A DNA stretch of 64,000 nucleotides from Caulobacter sp. S45 (GTDB lineage: Bacteria > Pseudomonadota > Alphaproteobacteria > Caulobacterales > Caulobacteraceae): the NCBI RefSeq assembly GCF_009765965.1, contig NZ_LMUL01000014.1, positions 1,792,969-1,856,968 on the forward strand, written 5' to 3'. Below, piece after piece: positions 1 through 48,728 of this stretch. Made by a program: the position numbers and the translations under genes. The first letter of the stretch is position 1. The number at the start of each line of letters is the position of its first letter. Below the pieces are notes generated by a model. The model worked only from the letters and a program-made list of their open reading frames with translations. It searched no databases and had not been told where the DNA came from.

Positions 1-962
1 GCCGCAGGTGGCTTGGGTGACGCGACCGGTGTCGCGGCGATCTTGTCCAACGAAGTTTGCGGCTCGCTCAGCAGGCCCTGGCGATGGCCGCCAACATACA
101 GGTCGAAGGCCGCGGGATCGGAGACGTCGGCGGTCAGGCTGCGGCCTTGCGGCGCCCGATAGGCCTCGCCCACCTTTAGCTCGCGGGCGAAATAGATTGC
201 GCCGCCGGGGCCGCGCACGATCAGCGAGGCCGACTTGTGCGCCTGGACCACCACGCCGCCCGCCTTGGCGTCCGCGCCGTAGATCGGGCCCCGGGAAACG
301 AATGTTGCGGGCGAGTAGGCTTGGGGCGCAGCCGGCGCGACGGGTTGCGGCGCTTTCGGATCGACGTTGTTGTCGATGCCCGGCACGCCCAGGCCCGGCG
401 TGATGTAGGACTGGGGCGTGGTCTGGTCGGCCGGCGGAGGCGTCGCGGGCCCGAGCGCGATGGTCTCCTTGGCAGGCGGGGTCGGAAGGGCCTGGGCCAG
501 GGCCGGCATGGCGGGGCCGGCGGGCGCATTGCTGATCAGCGAGCGCTGCGCCACGTTCCACAGGCCGATCGCCATCACCAGTACGGCGGCGCCCGCATAG
601 ATCACCAGACGGCGCTGGCCCCGTTCGGCCTCGACGCCGACGGGAGCACGAAGCTGCTGATCCGCCTCCGGATGTTCGCTCTTGAAGCGGGCCACGGCCG
701 CATCGCCGTCCAGGCCTAACGCCTTGGCGTAGGCGCGCACATAACCCACCGCGAACGGACGCGAGGGCAACGGCGTGAGATCGCCCGTCTCGATGGCGCC
801 CAGATACAGGCGGCGCACCCGCGTCACCTCGGCCACCTGGACCAGGCTCAGGTCCTTGTGCTCGCGAACCGCGCGTAGATACTCGCCGAGATTGGAAAAA
901 TTGGTCGATTCCGGCCCCGGCCCACGGCCGGGTGGCTCCGCAAAGCGGAGGATGTTCGTCAT
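1..962 (-). CDS. RodZ-like helix-turn-helix membrane protein, C-terminus cut by window edge
   Basis: The protein begins MTNILRFAEPPG and continues without a stop off the left edge (about 320 residues visible). Residues about 25-90 form a Cro/RodZ-type helix-turn-helix (EYLRAVREHKDLSLVQVAEVTRV is its core, with the typical PLPSRPFAVGYVRAYAK follow-on). A single membrane segment lies near residues 118-137, then a Pro/Ala-rich linker, then a beta-rich stretch resembling the DUF4115 periplasmic domain (SASLIVRGPGGAIYFAREL). In this family the HTH is cytoplasmic and the C-terminal domain periplasmic; RodZ members link MreB to the envelope. Whether this is true RodZ or a generic HTH-DUF4115 protein cannot be decided. 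An upstream in-frame ATG at 986 with GGAAG four bases before it is an alternative start, adding eight residues. The gene lies downstream of ptsP in the same direction. Confidence 0.75.
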   Translation of the reverse strand, partial: MTNILRFAEPPGRGPGPESTNFSNLGEYLRAVREHKDLSLVQVAEVTRVRRLYLGAIETGDLTPLPSRPFAVGYVRAYAKALGLDGDAAVARFKSEHPEADQQLRAPVGVEAERGQRRLVIYAGAAVLVMAIGLWNVAQRSLISNAPAGPAMPALAQALPTPPAKETIALGPATPPPADQTTPQSYITPGLGVPGIDNNVDPKAPQPVAPAAPQAYSPATFVSRGPIYGADAKAGGVVVQAHKSASLIVRGPGGAIYFARELKVGEAYRAPQGRSLTADVSDPAAFDLYVGGHRQGLLSEPQTSLDKIAATPVASPKPPA

Positions 963-1101
963 GGAGCCCGTGTCCAACGGAGCCATGGCTTCCGACGTCC
1001 CCACATGTCCGGTCGACCGAGGCGCCGCCCGCCTCGCACCGTGCCGAAATGTCTGCTTACGACTTGTCACCTAACAATAATTGCGCAAGGCGCCAACGCG
1101 T

Positions 1102-3381
1102 TCAGACTGCGACATTTAATTTACGCGCAAGAGTTTCGATTTCGTTTCGAACCGACCCTGCCGCGGATTTCAGCACCGAAGTGAATCCGCGTCGGGCCGC
1201 CCCGCCATCCAGTGATAACACCATCGCCTTAACAGGTCCCACCCCAGCCGGCGGCATGGACAGGCGGGTGAAGCCGAGCGAGACCAGGGCGAAGGCCTCC
1301 AGCGGCCGGCCGGCCATCTCTCCGCACACGGAAACCGGCGTTCCGGTGTCCGCGCAGGCGTCGCCGATGGTCTTCAGCGCCCGCAGCGCCGGGGGCGACA
1401 GCAGGTCGTAGCGATCCGACACCCGGGGATTCCCTCGGTCGGCGGCGAACAGGTACTGCATCAGGTCGTTGGTGCCGACCGAGATGAAGTCGGTCATCGG
1501 CAGCAGGGCGTCGAGGTGCCAGATCAGGGCCGGCGTCTCGATCATCACCCCCACCCGCACCTTGGCGGGGATGGGACGGCCGCGCCGCTGGGCCCAGGCG
1601 ATTTCCTTGTCGACCAGGGCCCGCGCCGCGCGGAACTCCTCCACCGTGGCCACCAGGGGGAACATCACCCGCAGCTCGCGTCCCTTGGCGGCGGCGATCA
1701 GCGCCCGCAGCTGCATCCGCAGCAGGGCCGGCCGGTCCAGCCCCATGCGCACCGCGCGCCAGCCGAGCGCCGGGTTGTCTTCCCGCTCGGCCTGCAGATA
1801 GGGCAGCACCTTGTCGCCGCCGAGATCGAGCGTGCGGAACGTCACCGGACGATCGCCGGCCGCCTCCATCACCCGCTCGTACAGCGCGGTCTGGGCGTCC
1901 AGACGCGGCAGTTCCTCGGCCACCATGAACTGGAACTCGGTGCGGAACAGGCCGATGCCCTCGGCGCCGGTGACCTCCAGGTTCTCCATGTCCACCGCCA
2001 GGCCGGCGTTCATCAGCAGGGTGATCTTGGTCCCGTCGCGGGTGAAGGCGGGGGTGTCGCGCAGGCGGTCGAACTCGGCGCGGCGCTGGTCGCGCACGGC
2101 GGCGCGGGCCTGCACAGCCTCGATCATGTCGGTGCGCGGCCGCAACAGGGCCTCGCCGATCTCGCCGTCGACGATCACCGGGTCGCCGCTGTTCACCCGG
2201 TCGCGCAGGCCCATCAGGCGGCCGACGCAGGGGATGCCCAGCGCCCGGGCGACGATGGAGGCGTGGCTGGCGGACGACCCCTCCTCCAGCAACAGACCCC
2301 TGAGCTTGGTGCGGTCGTATTCGAGCAGGTCGGCCGGCCCCAGGTTGCGGGCGATCAGCACCGCGCCTTCCGGCAGTTCGCGGGCGCCAGGGGTCTCGCC
2401 GGCCAGGATACGCAACAGCCGGTCGGCCAGGTCTTCAAGGTCGTGCAGGCGCTCGCGCAGATAGGGGTCGCGGGCCTGGGACATCCGTGCGCGCTGTTCG
2501 GAGCGCACCCGCTCCACCGCCGCCTCGGCGGTCAGGCCGGAGCGCACCGCCTCCTCCAGGCTGCGGTTCCAGCCCCGGTCGTGGGCGAACATGCGGTAGG
2601 CTTCCAGCACCTCGAAGGTCTGTCCCACCAGCCCATGCGAGCCGGCCAGCATTTCGTCGATCTGCTGGCGCAGCAGCTGCAGCGCCCGCGCCAGCCGCAG
2701 CGCCTCCTCGCTGGCGTCGTCGGCCAGCAGCTTCTCGGGCGCGACCGGGGTCTCGTGCAGCACCGCCACGCCAATGGCCAGGCCCTCGGCGAACTTCATC
2801 CCCTTCAGCCGCTCGGGCCGGTGGGGGGCGAGTTCGACGTCCTTGAGCTCGGCGGCGGCCAGGATCTCGCCGGACGCCACCATCTCGGCCAGCACCATGG
2901 CGATGGTCTGGACGTCCTCGACCTCGTCCTCCTCGTAGATGCGCGCGGTGCGGTTCTGCACCACCAGCACCCCGATGCTCCGGCCGCCCCGCAGCAGCGG
3001 GACGCCGAGGAAGGCGTGATAGGGGTCTTCGCCCGTTTCCGGATGGTAGGAGAAGCTCGGGTGCGCGGGCGCCTCGGACAGATTGATCGGGCGGCCCAGG
3101 CGCATGATCTCGCCGACCAGCCCCTCGCCGGGCTTCAACCGGGTGACGTGGACGGCCTCGGGCTTCAGCCCTTCGGTGGCGAACAGCTCCATGTCGCTGG
3201 ACGCGCGGCGCAGATAGAGCGAGCAGACCTCGGCGACCATGGAGACGGCGATGATCTGGACCACCTTGTCCAGCCGCCCCTGTGCAGGACCGCCGCCGGC
3301 CAGCGCTTCGCGGATCTGGCGCAGGAGACTGCGCGGACCACGAACCGCCAACCCCCTTTCGATCATCTCGACCTCCGCCAC
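1102..3381 (-). CDS. ptsP: PtsP, phosphoenolpyruvate-protein phosphotransferase of the nitrogen PTS (EI-Ntr)
   Basis: 759 residues. It transfers phosphate from PEP to an HPr-type carrier in the regulatory nitrogen PTS; cytoplasmic. Residues about 20-165 form a GAF domain (VSMVAEVCSLYLRR, LGVPLLRGGRSIGVLVVQN), the hallmark separating EI-Ntr from sugar EI. A helical HPr-binding region follows (about 195-340), then the phosphohistidine swivel domain with the active His373 in SSASHASIVARALGIPCVG. The C-terminal TIM barrel (about 430-720) carries GIGLFRTEFQFM, FISVGTNDLMQY and the catalytic Cys686 in SVCGEMAG. All catalytic positions are intact. Likely partners, an HPr, a mannose-type EIIA and HprK, are encoded about 47 kb away at 50.2-51.4 kb. 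An internal Met at residue 6 is an alternative start. In many alphaproteobacteria ptsP follows lysC; here the upstream gene is ccmI instead. Confidence 0.96.
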   Translation of the reverse strand: MAEVEMIERGLAVRGPRSLLRQIREALAGGGPAQGRLDKVVQIIAVSMVAEVCSLYLRRASSDMELFATEGLKPEAVHVTRLKPGEGLVGEIMRLGRPINLSEAPAHPSFSYHPETGEDPYHAFLGVPLLRGGRSIGVLVVQNRTARIYEEDEVEDVQTIAMVLAEMVASGEILAAAELKDVELAPHRPERLKGMKFAEGLAIGVAVLHETPVAPEKLLADDASEEALRLARALQLLRQQIDEMLAGSHGLVGQTFEVLEAYRMFAHDRGWNRSLEEAVRSGLTAEAAVERVRSEQRARMSQARDPYLRERLHDLEDLADRLLRILAGETPGARELPEGAVLIARNLGPADLLEYDRTKLRGLLLEEGSSASHASIVARALGIPCVGRLMGLRDRVNSGDPVIVDGEIGEALLRPRTDMIEAVQARAAVRDQRRAEFDRLRDTPAFTRDGTKITLLMNAGLAVDMENLEVTGAEGIGLFRTEFQFMVAEELPRLDAQTALYERVMEAAGDRPVTFRTLDLGGDKVLPYLQAEREDNPALGWRAVRMGLDRPALLRMQLRALIAAAKGRELRVMFPLVATVEEFRAARALVDKEIAWAQRRGRPIPAKVRVGVMIETPALIWHLDALLPMTDFISVGTNDLMQYLFAADRGNPRVSDRYDLLSPPALRALKTIGDACADTGTPVSVCGEMAGRPLEAFALVSLGFTRLSMPPAGVGPVKAMVLSLDGGAARRGFTSVLKSAAGSVRNEIETLARKLNVAV

Positions 3382-20264: not shown

Positions 20265-20286
20265 ATATGTTCGTCGCGACACATAT
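20265..20286. promoter_or_regulatory. Inverted repeat upstream of the RND operon (candidate operator)
   Basis: ATATGT (20265-20270) and ACATAT (20281-20286) are perfect arms around ten bases that contain the palindrome GTCGCGAC. The site overlaps the ATG at 20267 that would be the earliest start of the first efflux gene, suggesting that the real start is downstream and that this is a regulator-binding site. Confidence 0.45.
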
Positions 20287-21820
20287 CGCCAGCGCACAGG
20301 CGACCACCCCAAGCCAGGGGCCTGGTTTGCGGCGCGCCGCCCTCTGGGCCTTGAGCACGCTGCTGCTCGCCGGGTGCTCGACCGCGCGGCTGTCCAAGCC
20401 CGACGTCCACACGCCCACCGCCTACGAAGCCGCCGGCGCCTCCAACCCCGCCCTGCCGGCCGAAGCGCTGGACCGCTGGTGGCGGCTGTTCGACGACGCC
20501 CAGCTCACCCAATTGATCGAGCAGGCCCTGGTCTCGGCCCCGGATGCGCGCACCGCCCTCCAGCGCATCGGCGAGGCCCGCGCCACCCGCACCCAGACGC
20601 TGGCCGCCTACCTGCCCCAGGGCAATGTCCAGGGCCTGGCCCAGGAACAGCATACCGACGAGACCATCAGCGGGCTCAGCGGCGGCGACGTCGGCATCGG
20701 CGGCGGGGCGCTCAGCGGCGCCGGCTCCGCCACCGGCGGCCTGGGCAGCAGCCTGGTCGAGCCGTCCGGCGACCTGCAGACCTACGGCGCCCAGTTCAAC
20801 ATCACCTACGAGATCGACATCTTCCGGCGCCAGCGCGCGGCCCGGCGCGCGGCGGATGCGGACGTGGCGGCGGCGCGCTTCGACTTCGAGGCGGCCCGCG
20901 CCATGCTGGCCAAGAATGTCGCGGTCGACCTGTTCCAGGCCCGAGGCGCGGCCATCCAGCTGGAAGAAGCGCGCGACACCCTGCGGATCGCCCAGGACCT
21001 GGCGCGCACCGGCGACATCTCCGCCGCCCATGGCTTGACCTCGGGATCGGACGCGGCCCGGCTGCAGACCGACGTCGGGGTCGATGCGGCCGAGGTCGCC
21101 CGGCTGGAAGCCCAGTCCCTGGCGGCGCGGCGCGCCCTGCTGGCCCTGATCGGGCGCGGGACCGACCCGCTCGACAGCCTGCAGATCCAGCCGACGGCCG
21201 CCAGCCCGCCCATACCGCCGACCTCCGCACCGGGCGATCTGCTACGCCGCCGGCCCGACGTGCGCGAGGCCGAGGCCCACATCCGCTCCGCCGCCAACAC
21301 GCTCGCGCTCGACAAGCTGGCCCTGTTCCCGACCTTCCAGATCCTGCCGGGGGTTCAGGTCGACAAGACCGCCGGCAGCTTCGCCTCGATGAGCAGCATC
21401 TGGAGCATCGGGCTCGGCGCCTCCGCCCCGGTGCTGGACCGGCCGCGCCTGCTGGCGGTGATCCGGGGCCAGAAGGCCAAGGGCGAGGAACAGGTGATCG
21501 CCTACGAGCAGGCGGTGCAGAACGCCTATCGCGACGCGGAAACCGGCCTCTACACCCTGGCCGCCGACCGGCGCCGGGTGGATCGGCTAGAGGAGGCGGT
21601 CGGCAAGGCGCGATACGCCTTCGACGCCAAGAAGAGGGGCTACGACCTGGGCCTGACCGACCTGACCACGCTGCTGAACGCGGAAGGTGTCTGGCGCACC
21701 ACCCGCACCACCTACACGGGCGCGCAGACCCAGGCCCTGGTGGATGCGGCGACCCTGTTCCAGGCGCTCGGCGGGGGGTGGACCCCGCCGGAGCAGGTCC
21801 AGACGGCGGCGGCGCGATGA
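20267..21820 (+). CDS. Outer-membrane efflux lipoprotein of the RND operon (NodT family)
   Basis: Up to 517 residues. The channel protein of a tripartite RND pump. Lipoprotein signal: RRAALWALSTLLLAGC, followed by STARLSKPDVHTPTAYEAAG, typical of NodT proteins. Long coiled helices and the family signature PGDLLRRRPDVREAEAHIRSA follow. The ATG at 20267 has no ribosome-binding site, overlaps a palindrome and would put 20 odd residues before the signal peptide; a TTG at 20327 preceded by AGGGG gives an ideal short lipoprotein signal and is my preferred start. The stop TGA overlaps the next start (ATGA at 21817), so adaptor translation is coupled. Confidence 0.9.
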   Translation: MFVATHIASAQATTPSQGPGLRRAALWALSTLLLAGCSTARLSKPDVHTPTAYEAAGASNPALPAEALDRWWRLFDDAQLTQLIEQALVSAPDARTALQRIGEARATRTQTLAAYLPQGNVQGLAQEQHTDETISGLSGGDVGIGGGALSGAGSATGGLGSSLVEPSGDLQTYGAQFNITYEIDIFRRQRAARRAADADVAAARFDFEAARAMLAKNVAVDLFQARGAAIQLEEARDTLRIAQDLARTGDISAAHGLTSGSDAARLQTDVGVDAAEVARLEAQSLAARRALLALIGRGTDPLDSLQIQPTAASPPIPPTSAPGDLLRRRPDVREAEAHIRSAANTLALDKLALFPTFQILPGVQVDKTAGSFASMSSIWSIGLGASAPVLDRPRLLAVIRGQKAKGEEQVIAYEQAVQNAYRDAETGLYTLAADRRRVDRLEEAVGKARYAFDAKKRGYDLGLTDLTTLLNAEGVWRTTRTTYTGAQTQALVDAATLFQALGGGWTPPEQVQTAAAR

Positions 21821-23049
21821 GGGGAAAATGGATGCCGAAACTCAAGATTCCCTCCCCCTCGATGGGGGAGGGGCAAAGGTGGGGGTGTATCCCTTGCACT
21901 AACCGGACTGACGCTCGAGGCGCCGCCTCTCGTGTCCCATCCCCGCACGTCCTGCACTCACCCCCATCCCTGCCCTTCCCCCTTCGAGGGGGAAGGGTTC
22001 TCTTGGCCTGCCTCGCTCTCGCCGCCTGCCACAAACCCACAACCACCACCAAGCCGCCGGCGCGCCAACCCGTGGCCGTGACCGTCGCATCCGTCCGCAC
22101 CCAGGCGCTGCAGGGCGGCCTGACCGCCTCGGGCCTGATGATCCCCAAGCTGGAGGCCGCCGTCTCCACCGAGCTGAACGGCTACCGCGTGGCCAAGGTG
22201 TTCGTCGATCAGAACGCCTCGGTGAAGGCCGGCCAGTCCCTGGCCCAGCTGGACGACACCCTGCTGCGCGCCCAGATCGCCCAGCAGAAGGCCGTGGTCG
22301 ACCAGCAGAAGGTCGCCGCCGAACGCCAGGACGCCGAGGCCCAGCGCGTCGCCGGCCTCGACAACCAGGGGGTGCTGTCCCAAGAGCAGATCATCGAGCG
22401 TAGGTTGGCCGCGCGCAGCGGCCACGCCACCGTCGCCGCCGCCCAGGCCCAGCTCAACGACCTGGAGACCCGCGAAAGCCTGATGATGGTGCGCGCGCCG
22501 GTCAGCGGACTGGTGCTGGAACGTACCGTGCGCCCGGGCGATATCGCAGCCCCCGCCACCGCCATGTTCCGCATCGCCGCCGACGACGTGGTCGAACTCA
22601 ACGCCGAGGTCCCGGAATCGGGCCTGGCCGGCATCCAGCCCGGCGACGCGGCCGAGGTCGAACTGCCCGGCGGGACCAAGATCACCGGCCATGTCCGCCT
22701 GATCAGCCCCGAGGTGGACCAGCAGACCAAGCTCGGCCACATCCGCATCACCCTGCCGGTACGCCCCGACCTGCGGCCCGGCGGCTATGGCCGCGCCACC
22801 TTCTCCCAGAGCCGCCGCCCCGCCTCCGTCGTGCCCGACAGCGCGGTGCGCTACGACGCCGACGGCGCCTCGGTGCTGGCCCTGCAGTCCGACAACACGG
22901 TCAAGCGCATGCTGGTGAAGACCGGCGCCCGCGCCAACGGCATGGTCGAGCTGGTCGACGGGCCGCCGCCGGGAACTCGCGTCCTGCTCGGCGGCGGGGC
23001 CTTCGTGCTCGACGGCGACGTGGTCAAGCCGATCGAGGCGTCGCAGTGA
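21817..23049 (+). CDS. RND periplasmic adaptor lipoprotein with repeat-derived N-terminus
   Basis: 410 residues if read from the ATG at 21817, which overlaps the channel gene's stop. The adaptor part is ordinary: lipobox LALAAC at residues 66-71, lipoyl half (TELNGYRVAKVFVDQNASVKAGQSLAQLDD), coiled-coil hairpin, second lipoyl half (RAPVSGLVLERTVRPGDIAAPATAMF) and beta-barrel. Residues about 11-60 are unusual: they are translated from a 148-bp interspersed palindromic repeat (21850-21997), giving IPSPSMGEGQ at one end and [10 protein letters not shown] at the other. The signal peptide core VLLACLALAAC thus sits some 60 residues in. Either a long leader is made, or translation starts at an alternative codon such as the TTG in the LLACLAL segment. 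The permease follows 43 bp later. Confidence 0.85.
   Translation: MRGKWMPKLKIPSPSMGEGQRWGCIPCTNRTDARGAASRVPSPHVLHSPPSLPFPLRGGRVLLACLALAACHKPTTTTKPPARQPVAVTVASVRTQALQGGLTASGLMIPKLEAAVSTELNGYRVAKVFVDQNASVKAGQSLAQLDDTLLRAQIAQQKAVVDQQKVAAERQDAEAQRVAGLDNQGVLSQEQIIERRLAARSGHATVAAAQAQLNDLETRESLMMVRAPVSGLVLERTVRPGDIAAPATAMFRIAADDVVELNAEVPESGLAGIQPGDAAEVELPGGTKITGHVRLISPEVDQQTKLGHIRITLPVRPDLRPGGYGRATFSQSRRPASVVPDSAVRYDADGASVLALQSDNTVKRMLVKTGARANGMVELVDGPPPGTRVLLGGGAFVLDGDVVKPIEASQ
21850..21997 (+). repeat. 148-bp interspersed palindromic element, copy 1
   Basis: Left hairpin CCCTCCCCC/GGGGGAGGG (21850-21872, loop TCGAT) and right hairpin CCCTTCCCCC/GGGGGAAGGG (21973-21997, loop TTCGA), with GGTGGGGGTG and CACCCCCAT just inside. 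A second copy of identical length lies in opposite orientation at 48581-48728; the right 46 bp differ at only two positions by eye, the middle is more diverged. Located inside the adaptor reading frame. Confidence 0.9.
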
Positions 23050-23092: not shown

Positions 23093-26000
23093 ATGAAGCT
23101 GCGCATCTCCGCCTGGAGCATCCGCAACCCGATCCCGGTGGCGATCCTGTTCATCGCCCTGACCCTGGCCGGACTGCTGTCCTACGCCTCGCTGCCGATC
23201 AAGCAGTACCCCAACATCTCGTTCCCCCTGGTGGTGGTCAGCGTCACCCAGAGCGGCGCGGCGCCCAGCGAGATGCAGAACCAGATCACCCGGCCGGTCG
23301 AGGACGCCATCGCCGGGGTCGCCAACATCAAGCACCTGTCGTCCACCGTCACCCTCGGTTCGTCCGTCACCCAGATCGAGTTCGAGCTGGGCACCGACAT
23401 GCAGAAGGCCACCGACGACGTGCGCACCGCCGTCGACCGAACCCGCGTACAGCTGCCGCCCGGCATCGACCCGCCCACCGTCCAGCGCATCGACATCGAT
23501 TCCGCCCCGATCCTGACCTATGCGGTCAGCTCCGCCACCCGCTCGCCAGTCGATCTGTCCTGGTTCGTCGACGACACCATCTCGCGCACCGTTCAGGCTG
23601 AGAAGGGCGTGGCGCAGGTGACGCGCGCCGGCGGCATCGACCGCGAGATCAACGTCACCCTCGACCCGGCCCGCATGGCCGCCTTCGGCGTCACCGCGCC
23701 CCAGGTGAACCAGGCGATGTACCAGTTCAACGTCGACGAGACGGGCGGTCGCGCCAATATCGGCGGGCAGGAGCAGAACGTGCGCGTGCTGGGCCAGGCC
23801 CAGACCGTGGACGCCCTCCGCAAAGTAACGATCCCCGCCGCCGGCCGTTACGTGCGCCTGGCCGACGTGGCCGAGATCGGCGACGGCCAGTCCGAACAGC
23901 GCGGCTTCGCCCGGCTGGACGGCCGGCCCGCCGTGGCCTTCCAGGTCAACAAGACCCGCGACGCCAGCGACGTCTCCACCGAGAAGCGGGTGCAGGCGGT
24001 CATCGCCAAGCTGGCCAAGGCCCATCCGGACGTGACCTTCACCCAGGTCATCTCCACCGTCGACTCCACCCGCAAGAGCTACGAGGCCACCATCCACGTG
24101 CTGGTCGAGGGCATGATCCTGGCCGCTCTGGTGGTCTGGCTGTTCCTCAAGAGCTGGCGCGCCACCGCGATCGCGGCCACCGCCATGCCGCTGTCGCTGA
24201 TCCCGACCTTCTCGGCCATCCAGGTGTTCGGCTTCAGCCTGAATGTCATCACCCTGCTCAGCCTGACCCTGGTGATCGGCATCCTGGTCGACGACGCCAT
24301 CGTCGAGATCGAGAACATCGAGAAGCGCATTTCGCGGGGCGAAAGTCCCTACCGCGCCTCGCTGCTGGGCGCGGACTCCATCGGGCTGGCGGTGGTGGCG
24401 ACCACGGCGACCATCGTGGTGGTGTTCATGCCGGTGTCGTTCATGCCAGGGATCGCGGGCCAGTTCTTCAAGGAGTTCGGGCTCACCGTCGCCATCTCGG
24501 TGATCTTCTCGCTGATCGTAGCGCGCCTGCTGACGCCCCTGCTCGCCGCCTATTTCCTCAAGCCCAGCGCCCATCCCAAGCCGAGCAAGCCGCTGGAGGG
24601 CCCCTATCGCAAGGCGCTCGACTGGGCCATGGCGCACCGCTTCATCTCGATGGGGATCGGGGGGCTGATCTTCGTGGCCTCGATCATGCTGCTGGCCAGC
24701 CGCCCGGTCGGCTTCCAGCCGCGCGGCGACGCCGGCTATTTCTACCTGAACGTCGAAGGTCCGCCGGGCGCCACCCGCCAGGCGATGGATACCGCGCTGA
24801 GCCAGGCCACGCGCATGCTGCTGACCCAGCCCGACGTGGAGCGCGTATTCGCCCAGGACGGCTCCAGCGCCACCGACAACAGCTCCGACCTGCGCGACGG
24901 CACCATCACCGTGGTGCTGAAGCCGAACCGCATCCACAAGACCGAAGAGGTCAAAACGCTCATCCGACCCTTCCTGCGCCAGATCCCCGACGTGCGGATC
25001 AGCACGCTCGGCGGGTTCGGGGCGGCGGACGTGGAGATCGTGCTGTCCAGCCAGAACGGCCCGGCGCTGGAACGCGTGCAGCTCGAACTCCAGCGGGAGA
25101 TGCGCGGCCTGTCGGTGCTGACCGACGTGCGCCCCGCGCCGCCGCCGTCCGGCCCCGAACTGGTGGTGCGGCCCAAGCCCAGCGAGGCGGCCCGGCTCGG
25201 CGTCACTTCCGACGCGCTCGCCAGCGTGCTGCGGATCGCCACCATCGGCGACATCGACGCCAACGTGGCCAAGTTCTCCGAGGGCGAACGGCGTATTCCT
25301 ATCCGCGTGCGCCTGCCCGAGAGCGACCGCACCGACCTGTCTGTGCTGGCCAACCTCCAGGTGCCGACCCTGGCCGGCAAGTCCACGCCCCTGTCCTCGG
25401 TGGCCGACCTGTCGTTCCAGGCCGGGCCGGGCAAGATCGTGCGCTACGCCCGCGAACGGCGCGCCTCGGTCCAGGCCGACCTGCGCGGCGGCGCCAGCCT
25501 CGGCACCGCACTGAACGCGATCAAGAAGCTGCCGGTGATGCAGCACCTGCCGGCCGACGTCCGCCAACCCCCGGTCGGCGACGCCGAGGCGCTGCAGGAC
25601 GTGATCACCGGCTTCACCGGGGCGATCCTGTCGGGAATCCTGCTGATCTACGCGGTGCTGGTGCTGCTGTTCCGCAGCTTCTTCAAGCCGCTGATCATCC
25701 TGGCCACCCTGCCCCTGACCCTGGCCGGCGTCTCGGTGGCGCTGACCGTCGCGGGGATGGAGATCGACATGCCGGTGTTCATCGGCCTGCTGATGCTGTT
25801 CGGGATCGCGGCCAAGAACTCCATCCTGCTGGTGGAGTTCGCCATCGAGGACGAACGCGCCGGCCAGGACCGCTGGCAGGCCCTGCACAACGCCTGCCGC
25901 GAGCGGGCGCGCCCCATCGTCATGACCACCGTGGCCATGATCGCCGGCATGCTGCCGACCGCCCTGGCGCTGGGCCAGGGGTCGGAATTCCGCCAGCCGA

Positions 26001-26197
26001 TGGCGATCGCGGTGATCGGCGGACTGGTCAGCTCGACCATCCTCTCCCTGGTGCTGGTGCCGGTGATCTATCTGCTGGTGGACAGCTTCGAGGCCTGGCT
26101 GACGCCCAAGTTCAGCGGCCTGATCACCCACAAGCGGCCAGGCGACGACGCCCCGATCCGCGAGGACGAAGAGACCCTGGTCACCGAAGGGGCGTGA
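23093..26197 (+). CDS. RND multidrug efflux permease (AcrB/HAE-1 family)
   Basis: 1034 residues, normal for the family. Inner-membrane proton-driven trimeric pump taking substrates from periplasm and membrane. The N-terminus MKLRISAWSIRNPIPVAILF is the first membrane helix; twelve helices are expected. Proton-relay acidic pair in helix 4: VIGILVDDAIVEIENIEKR. Other signatures: SVTQSGAAPSEMQNQITRPVEDAI, GMILAALVVWLFLKSWRA, FGIAAKNSILLVEFAIEDE and the LVLVPVIYLL end. The two periplasmic porter repeats are complete, with no frameshift. Third gene of the operon channel, adaptor, permease; substrate not predictable. Confidence 0.96.
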   Translation: MKLRISAWSIRNPIPVAILFIALTLAGLLSYASLPIKQYPNISFPLVVVSVTQSGAAPSEMQNQITRPVEDAIAGVANIKHLSSTVTLGSSVTQIEFELGTDMQKATDDVRTAVDRTRVQLPPGIDPPTVQRIDIDSAPILTYAVSSATRSPVDLSWFVDDTISRTVQAEKGVAQVTRAGGIDREINVTLDPARMAAFGVTAPQVNQAMYQFNVDETGGRANIGGQEQNVRVLGQAQTVDALRKVTIPAAGRYVRLADVAEIGDGQSEQRGFARLDGRPAVAFQVNKTRDASDVSTEKRVQAVIAKLAKAHPDVTFTQVISTVDSTRKSYEATIHVLVEGMILAALVVWLFLKSWRATAIAATAMPLSLIPTFSAIQVFGFSLNVITLLSLTLVIGILVDDAIVEIENIEKRISRGESPYRASLLGADSIGLAVVATTATIVVVFMPVSFMPGIAGQFFKEFGLTVAISVIFSLIVARLLTPLLAAYFLKPSAHPKPSKPLEGPYRKALDWAMAHRFISMGIGGLIFVASIMLLASRPVGFQPRGDAGYFYLNVEGPPGATRQAMDTALSQATRMLLTQPDVERVFAQDGSSATDNSSDLRDGTITVVLKPNRIHKTEEVKTLIRPFLRQIPDVRISTLGGFGAADVEIVLSSQNGPALERVQLELQREMRGLSVLTDVRPAPPPSGPELVVRPKPSEAARLGVTSDALASVLRIATIGDIDANVAKFSEGERRIPIRVRLPESDRTDLSVLANLQVPTLAGKSTPLSSVADLSFQAGPGKIVRYARERRASVQADLRGGASLGTALNAIKKLPVMQHLPADVRQPPVGDAEALQDVITGFTGAILSGILLIYAVLVLLFRSFFKPLIILATLPLTLAGVSVALTVAGMEIDMPVFIGLLMLFGIAAKNSILLVEFAIEDERAGQDRWQALHNACRERARPIVMTTVAMIAGMLPTALALGQGSEFRQPMAIAVIGGLVSSTILSLVLVPVIYLLVDSFEAWLTPKFSGLITHKRPGDDAPIREDEETLVTEGA

Positions 26198-46259: not shown

Positions 46260-48608
46260 ATGGCTTCCCCCGCCCCAGCCCAGATCGCGCGCGGCCTGAT
46301 CGGGCGCGGCCTGGCCGAGCACAAGGCCGGCCACCTCGACGCCGCCGAACCGCTGTACCGCGAGGGCTTGGCGCTCGACGCCAAGGTCCAGGAGGGCTGG
46401 CGGCTGCTGGGCGTGCTGTTGCAGCAGAAGGGCGCTACGGCGGCCAGCGTGGAGGTCGTCGAGCGGGCGCTGGCGCTGGGCCGCAACGCGGTGGACCTGT
46501 CCAACCTCGCCAACGCCTTGAATCAGTTGGCTCGCTCTGAGCAGGCCGCCGCCGCCGCCGCCGAGGCGCTCAGCTTCGACCCGCGCATGCCCGCCGCCCA
46601 CCTGAACCTGGGCGTCGCCAACCGCGCCCTGGGTCATCGCGAGGCCGCCGCCCAGAACTTCCGCGCCGCCGCCGGCCTGCAACCCGCCTATGCCGACGCC
46701 CATCTCAATCTCGGGGTGACGCTGACCGAGCTCGGCAAGCCGGACCAGGCCGAGGCGCCGCTACGCACCGCCGTCGGCCTCCTGCCCCAGGCGGCCGAGC
46801 CGCAGTTCAACCTGGGCAATTCGCTGCTGCGCCAGCTCCGCTTCGAGGAGGCCCGCGACGCCTATCTGGAGGCGATCCGCCTGCGTCCGGCCTATGCGGA
46901 GGCGCACGGCAACCTGGCCGCCGCCTACAAGGCCCTGGCCCAGCTCGACCTGTCGGTCGTCCACTACGCCGAGGCCGCGCGCCTGGCCCCGCGCGACATC
47001 GTCCTGCTGCAGAACTACGCCCTGATGCTGGCCGAGCTGCGCCGCTACGGCGAGGCGATCCCGGTCTACGAGCAGGCCGTGGCCCTGAACCCGCCCCAGG
47101 CGCCGATCTACACCAACCTCGGCAGCGCCATCCAGGAGTACGTCCGCGACCGCCACGACGTCGGCGTGCTGGCGCTGCTGGACCGCGCCATCCTGGCCCA
47201 CCTACAGGCGTTGTCGATCAATCCCGAACTGGTGGCCGCCCAGATGAACCTGGGGCTGGCCCTGCTGGCGCGCGGACGGCAGGCCGATGCGGTGGAAGCC
47301 TTCAAGACCGCCATCGCGCTGCAGCCCGACGTGGCGGAATCCCACAGCAACCTCGGCCAATGCCTGTCCGACATCGGTCAGTTCGAGGAGGCGGCCGCAG
47401 CCTGCCGCCGCGCCATCGAGCTGAACCCGAAGCTGGCGGAGGCGCACTCCACCCTCGGCAACACCCTGATCGCGCAGAACAAGGTGGTGGAGGCCGAGCC
47501 GCACTACCGTGACGCCCTGGCGATCAAGCCCGAAATGCCGGGCGCCTGGTGCAATCTCGGCGTCTCCCTGTTCCGCCAGGGGCGCGCCGCCGAGGCCGAG
47601 ACCGTCTACGAGACGGCGCTGAAGTACGATCCCAACCTGCCCGACGCCCACTGGAACTACGCCCTGGCCCTGCTCCAGCGCGGCGTGTTCGACGAGGGGT
47701 TCGCCGAGTACGAGTGGCGGCTGAAACGTCCCGGCCGGCTGCGCCAGGACGCCGGCTTCACCCAGCCGCTGTGGGACGGGCGCGAGCTGAACGGAGCGTC
47801 TATCCTGATCCATGCCGAACAGGGCTTCGGCGACGCCATCCAGTGCGCGCGCCTGATCCCCCAGGTGGCGGCGCGCGGCGGCCGGGTGGTGCTTCAGGCC
47901 CGCAAGCCGCTGAAGCGGCTGATGGAGCACCTGCCGGGCGTGGCGGAATTCGTCATCGACGGGGACCCGGCCGTGGACATCGCCTGCCGCGCGCCGATGT
48001 TCAGCCTGCCGCATCACTTCGTGCGCAGCCTGGACGACCTGCCGGGCGCCATCCCCTACCTGCCCGTCGACCCGGAACTATCCGCCGCCTGGGCCGCGAA
48101 GCTGGCCACCATTGCGCCGGACGGGCTGAAGGTCGGCATCGTGTGGAGCGGCAACCTGACCTCGGAGGTGGAGATCGGCCGCTCGATCCCGCTCAAGGCC
48201 CTGGCGCCCCTGGCCGCCGTTCCCGGAGCGCGCCTGATCAGCCTGCAGAAGGCCGACGGCATGGACATGCTCGACGACCCGACCCTGGGTTTCGAGGTCG
48301 CGCGCCTGGACGAGGTCTACGACGCCGGCGACTTCGCGGAGACGGCGGCGGTGATGGCCAACCTCGACCTGCTGATCAGCTGCGACACCGCCTCGGGCCA
48401 CCTCGCCGGGGCCATCGGCAAGCCGGTGTGGATCGCAGTCAACCGGGTGTCGGACTGGCGCTGGATGGAGGATCGCGAGGACACCCCCTGGTATCCGACC
48501 ATGCGCATCTTCCGCCAGCAGACGCTCGGCGACTGGGGTCCGGTGTTCGAGCGGATGGCGGCGGCGTTGCGGGAATGGCGCCCTTCCCCCTCGAAGGGGG
48601 AAGGGTAG
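46260..48608 (+). CDS. TPR-repeat glycosyltransferase
   Basis: 782 residues. The N-terminal 480 residues contain at least ten TPR units (for example [80 protein letters not shown]). The C-terminal part (from about residue 515) is a glycosyltransferase-B-like domain related to the GT9/GT41 group: [46 protein letters not shown], and [19 protein letters not shown]. Such proteins are frequent in Caulobacter-like bacteria and have been linked to protein or flagellin glycosylation; the substrate here is unknown. No signal peptide. The final residues RPSPSKGEG come from the 148-bp repeat at its 3' end. Confidence 0.9.
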
Positions 48609-48728
48609 GGTTGGGGGTGAGTGCAGGCTGTGTGACGTGGGGCGATAGAGGCGTCGCCACCTCTTAGGCCAGTCCGTCAACCTTGCGGCCACACCCCCGC
48701 CCTGGCCCTCCCCCTTCGAGGGGGAGGG
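48581..48728 (-). repeat. 148-bp interspersed palindromic element, copy 2
   Basis: Hairpins CCCTTCCCCC/GGGGGAAGGG (48581-48605, loop TCGAA) and CCCTCCCCC/GGGGGAGGG (48706-48728, loop TTCGA). It is the reverse complement of copy 1 at 21850-21997 and equally long. It overlaps the last codons and stop of the TPR glycosyltransferase gene and ends 18 bp from the convergent cysS stop, so it may act as a two-way transcript barrier. Confidence 0.9.

Follow-up and report, generated by a model that had tools for sequence, protein, structure and literature searches.

A multicopy, selfish-looking palindromic repeat is inserted in frame in the signal peptide of an RND efflux adaptor gene of Caulobacter sp. 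S45. The long leader that it creates is probably translated and cleaved at Cys 22027, which would leave the mature adaptor unchanged. The window, the whole stretch of 64,000 nucleotides analyzed here, holds a tripartite RND efflux operon in which an outer-membrane gene of the NodT/TolC type is followed by the adaptor and an ACR_tran permease. The features of this operon, all on the plus strand, are listed below.

20267..21820, plus: outer-membrane efflux protein, NodT/TolC type (Pfam OEP, 1.2e-27; TIGR01845 above cut-off)
21817..21819, plus: in-frame ATG overlapping the TolC stop
21832..21834, plus: second in-frame ATG, preceded by GAGGGG (21819-21824) at 7-nt spacing and chosen by the codon-usage gene caller
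21850..21997, plus: 148-nt palindromic repeat copy, coding for residues 12-61, with TT at 21848-21849 and 21998-21999
21850..21872, plus: left terminal hairpin, two of whose pairs show compensatory changes among 24 copies
21973..21997, plus: right terminal hairpin of the repeat, coding for ...PFPLRGGR and nearly invariant over 24 copies
21997..22029, plus: hydrophobic core and lipobox VLLACLALAAC, residues 61-71, Cys codon 22027-22029
22003..22005, plus: TTG, the sole ATG/GTG/TTG between repeat and lipobox, leaving 8 residues before Cys
22030..23049, plus: mature RND periplasmic adaptor, or membrane fusion protein (TIGR01730, 2.5e-52, above cut-off; HlyD_D23, 2.4e-23)
23093..26197, plus: RND permease (Pfam ACR_tran, 3.1e-237)

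The assignment as an RND periplasmic adaptor is given by TIGR01730 above its cut-off together with the OEP and ACR_tran neighbours. The TolC/NodT stop overlaps the adaptor ATG at 21817 (ATGA), and the adaptor frame runs from this ATG to the stop at 23047-23049 with no in-frame stop; the TolC and permease frames are likewise intact. The initial annotation had placed VLLACLALAAC far behind the coupled ATG and had described a 148-bp repeat in which the frame stays open, and both statements are borne out, the repeat being exactly 148 nt long and multicopy. It had also ascribed the intervening residues to the repeat, which applies to residues 12-61 and not to residues 1-11, and it had taken 21817 as the only ATG before the repeat, which was mistaken because ATG 21832 is present as well; a third in-frame ATG, at 21862, is within the repeat.

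The repeat of 148 nt and 2 nt of the flanking TT make up a 150-nt in-frame insert, which lies between the n-region and the hydrophobic core of the lipoprotein signal peptide. The only possible sign of a target-site duplication is the TT on each side; no consistent duplication is visible by eye around 24 copies, and the boundary of the insert is inexact. That the stretch was inserted is indicated by the orthologues. In the family, 140 of 249 genomes match the adaptor at E ≤ 1e-60, and the leaders compared here are those of the 29 best non-self loci. The farthest eligible ATG or GTG is 18-38 residues from the lipobox Cys in all 29, and the corresponding distance here is 71 residues from ATG 21817 or 66 from ATG 21832. 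When the element was compared by blastn with these 29 loci, none matched, and none has a long leader. Orthologues with the extension and without the repeat, which the initial annotation had named as counter-evidence, are therefore found at 0/29 loci. Its central claim, that the repeat rewrote the N-terminus, is thus upheld for the precursor, since the long leader and the repeat are unique to this gene among the loci compared. The mature N-terminus was probably not rewritten, because the insert sits in the signal peptide.

Spacing within the operon agrees with this. From the TolC stop to the Cys codon there are 206 nt here, and 56 nt after removal of 150 nt. Of the 28 orthologue loci with an identified TolC stop, 25 have 47-101 nt in this interval, which is longer in L016 (170 nt) and in the two congeners (212 and 203 nt). 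Joined without the 150 nt, the flanks read MPKLKILLACLALAAC, a short lipoprotein signal. In the two congeners (L070, L071; G002, G001), TolC and adaptor are separated by a spacer of ~128 nt, 88% conserved from one congener to the other, that the window genome lacks. This spacer bears no relation to the repeat and is single-copy across the three genomes of the genus, and because the congeners differ in this way, the exact empty site is shown by no near relative.

The repeat belongs to a family with many copies. Searching its own genome gave 83 matches, merged by hand into about 36 places including the adaptor copy, a lower bound since 40 of 65 first-look candidates were scored. One candidate, L069, is a 35-nt match inside an ordinary protein and was rejected as chance. 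Near-full-length copies at 24 of the 36 places were analyzed, those that were short, divergent, at a contig end or beside N runs being dropped. Most of the 24 are 142-151 nt long, and conservation is 0.85 in the left arm, 0.92 in the right arm and 0.64 in the middle; the compensatory changes at two pairs of the left hairpin occur in 7 cells. A search of 60 relatives recovered the consensus in 14, all from the same family (14/36) and none from other families of the order (0/24). Plasmids lacked the element, except that one Leptolinea record matched an arm over 41 nt. The family search also found another copy within the window.

48581..48728, minus: second window copy of the repeat

This copy provides the 3' end of a TPR-like gene (46260-48608, plus), namely its stop and the eight to nine codons before it (RPSPSKGEG). 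In a further eight of 35 copies (L038, L040, L041, L051, L052, L060, L063, L065), the purine-rich right end is followed, after 8-18 nt, by a predicted start codon of the same orientation and might serve as a ribosome-binding site.

The repeat itself is clearly beyond chance, being multicopy and strongly structured: as a single RNA strand, the adaptor copy reaches -93 kcal/mol (z = -7.7; 0 of 200 shuffles equally stable). Its open frame is not. Each forward frame is open in 44-48% of dinucleotide shuffles of the adaptor copy, so that an open frame together with a length divisible by three is expected by chance about once in 6-7 cases (1/3 x 0.44-0.48). Over the 24 copies, 50% of the six frames are open, where dinucleotide shuffles give 47% (sd 4), and the idea that the open frame proves selection was rejected. 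GC by codon position is flat in the repeat (0.66/0.71/0.69) against 0.75/0.48/0.94 in the mature adaptor, which indicates that the repeat was not shaped as coding sequence. Rfam gave 13 matches, all under the gathering scores and nearly all to long-hairpin microRNA models, and these are taken as chance products of the palindrome.

How such a precursor would work can be outlined as follows. A non-autonomous palindromic repeat, of a type spread across the family, entered the signal-peptide codons behind the charged n-region and ahead of the hydrophobic core and lengthened the frame by 150 nt without shifting it. Ribosomes would start at ATG 21832, or at the TolC-coupled 21817, and read across the repeat to make a leader of about 66-71 residues. 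On sequence grounds, ATG 21832 is likely the better start and at least an equally good one. The core VLLACLALA and the lipobox LAAC would be retained, with Arg-Gly-Gly-Arg from the right arm of the repeat directly before them. After export, the leader would be removed at Cys 22027, where the protein would be lipidated, and since the leader is cleaved off, the mature adaptor should stay the same. The lipobox LAAC is indeed retained, with a maximal hydropathy of 3.19, and ...PFPLRGGR places two arginines ahead of the hydrophobic core. Counted from the last K/R to the lipobox Cys, the uncharged stretch measures 10 residues whether or not the repeat is present, shorter than the 13-23 of all 29 orthologues. 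This raises a real doubt, in that the signal could be weak or some codons could be missing. It had been proposed that a functional pump would need either a non-ATG start after the repeat or a tolerated long leader. Between these two, the long leader is favoured, because the only start after the repeat is TTG 22003, with 8 residues before Cys and no positive charge.

Rather unlikely, in our estimate, is that the insertion crippled the adaptor, the leader or the hairpin blocking translation or export, and that the operon is an early pseudogene not yet decayed. The stability of the hairpin (z -7.7) and the short hydrophobic core would fit such a loss, as would the frame that is open no more than chance allows and the flat codon-position GC of a repeat not adapted as coding sequence. 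The hairpin begins 18 nt downstream of ATG 21832 and could hinder initiation or undergo cutting by RNase III. However, the adaptor, TolC and permease frames are intact, and the insert is in frame, as are three other gene-internal copies in the genome. In Tajima relative-rate tests of the adaptor, the counts involving this branch are 23 v 27, 27 v 28, 25 v 21 and 24 v 21, and neither permease nor TolC is accelerated either. The adaptor is thus not accelerated on this branch. Together with the intact frames, this is mild evidence of selection, and a recent loss of function would be invisible to the rate test. When the contigs were searched with the adaptor, the sole matches were two loci of low identity (28% and 24%), which were left aside, and searching plasmids for the permease gave distant homologues only (best 63%).

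A role mainly on the RNA, in which processing of the hairpin (e.g., by RNase III) lowers adaptor-permease output relative to TolC, seems improbable: a very stable two-arm or long hairpin does lie in the middle of the operon, and RNase III processing is reported for Correia/NEMIS repeats (PMC2229807), but a cut inside the leader would take away the start of the adaptor frame. A restart at TTG 22003 behind the repeat's GGGGGAAGGG, with the repeat as an untranslated, portable 5' UTR or ribosome-binding site, has a purine-rich end 5 nt ahead of the TTG and the eight similarly placed right ends among 35 copies in its favour, but it is very improbable and was rejected because the leader would be too short (9 residues in total against 18-38 in orthologues, with 8 before Cys and no n-region charge), and the right arm is paired within the stable hairpin.

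The insertion in the adaptor signal peptide is accompanied by other in-frame copies. A home-made codon-usage model served as gene caller, and out-of-frame disruptions were sought through it only, not through homology; on this basis 6 of the 36 places are inside predicted genes, and four remain without L069 and L046, all in frame. L046 was set aside because its frame extends upstream of the start of the downstream gene, which we take to be branched-chain-aminotransferase-like, and the copy is probably intergenic. The four hosts are the adaptor, glyS, a ligase-associated DEXH helicase and a HyuA-HyuB-like fusion. Among 20 regions fetched from two congeners, one gene-internal element was found (L127), and for several genes the start or the end falls within a copy. 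The copies in genes other than the adaptor are as follows.

L062, G000:C17, gene 503-3037 (minus), element 1517-1667: glyS, glycyl-tRNA synthetase beta (TIGR00211 above cut-off)
L044, G000:C9, element 1598-1748: ligase-associated DEXH helicase (TIGR04121 above cut-off)
L061, G000:C9, element 1604-1748, in a linker: HyuA-HyuB-like fusion (best models caprolactamase alpha and beta, below their cut-offs)
L127, G001:C10, element 1569-1710, in frame in a linker: congener gene with lipoyl-domain acyltransferase features, presumably such an acyltransferase

The element is thus in frame in unrelated genes, four here and one in a congener, and mostly absent from their orthologues; most copies are intergenic, and those in genes are read in at least two frames. 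glyS is an essential-type gene, and two further repeat fragments are nearby, one adjoining the glyS start. In alignments of orthologues, the insertion sites in glyS, the helicase and the linker are variable loops, empty in most relatives and occupied by other inserts in some. The glyS of G013 (L082) has an insert of the same repeat family, matched by the consensus search at the same place. The helicase loop contains inserts in two relatives (L089, L090), a repeat with 52 matches in G001 and one with 9 in G007, and the HyuA-HyuB-like linker of G014 (L103) contains a different repeat with 13 matches in that genome, self matches being included in all three counts. Since the helicase and linker inserts of relatives are other multicopy repeats, these loops have received more than one kind of repeat in frame. 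A broader reading, which we hold tentatively, is that, across this bacterial family, the same permissive sites in proteins receive palindromic repeats of several unrelated kinds in frame time after time, so that repeats would steadily provide conserved proteins of free-living alphaproteobacteria with new loops and leaders. The permissive sites would then be the GlyRS-beta loop, the helicase inter-domain loop, the hydantoinase-type linker, the lipoyl-domain linker and the signal peptide, the last because it is discarded.

Insertion of this kind, in frame and RPE- or REP-like, is already known; the location is unusual, and a wider in-frame pattern goes with it. In-frame palindromic inserts have been described as Rickettsia RPEs, enterobacterial RUs, Coxiella QMITEs and intragenic REPs. 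Rickettsia RPEs are palindromes of about 150 bp found in frame in protein genes, including conserved ones, and a fused enzyme is reported to stay active in some cases (PMC2229807, PMC10969869). The present repeat is likewise a multicopy palindrome of about 150 bp in frame in several unrelated genes, a likeness of description from which membership is not claimed; it differs from RPEs in host and presumably in sequence, uses at least two frames and is mostly intergenic. Intragenic REPs (GTAG/CGTC; Di Nocera, 2013; PMC3733652) encode peptides in genes including tRNA synthetases and repair helicases, and different REPs occur near the same recB site in two Xanthomonas (PMC3733652), a precedent for the recurrence of repeats at a shared site. 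Those REPs are described as 20-40 bp units with GTAG or CGTC ends, in contrast to the 148-nt unit here. A REPIN mobilized by a RAYT was rejected, since no Y1 transposase (PF01797) was matched in the genome at E ≤ 0.01, while the control gave matches in 6 of 14 genomes.

In Yersinia YPO1552, the RU-2/YPAL repeat is described as having helped to form the signal of a putative new protein; here, by contrast, a conserved pump subunit already had a lipoprotein signal, which the repeat interrupts. CIR repeats of Caulobacter and Brucella (Chen and Shapiro, 2003, as given in reviews) are about 110 bp long, bear GANTC, have stops in all frames and are said there not to be intragenic. They resemble the present family as alphaproteobacterial repeats with two hairpin arms and a linker. 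However, most of the 24 copies are 142-151 nt long, half of their frames are open and intragenic copies are present. The GANTC (CcrM) site occurs in 4 of the 24 copies against 49% expected from shuffles, and CIR membership was rejected because the site is depleted and not conserved. Among open-licence papers, no report was found of this repeat family or of in-frame repeats in Caulobacter or the Caulobacteraceae.

For annotation, the case warns that N-termini coded by repeats, as proposed by a gene caller, can be real. If the leader works, it offers a clean natural test of how long an n-region a lipoprotein signal can tolerate. It links the insertion in the adaptor with in-frame inserts that the same genome carries in an essential-type glyS and in further conserved genes, and it shows a repeat inserted where a protein can absorb it, in a removable leader.
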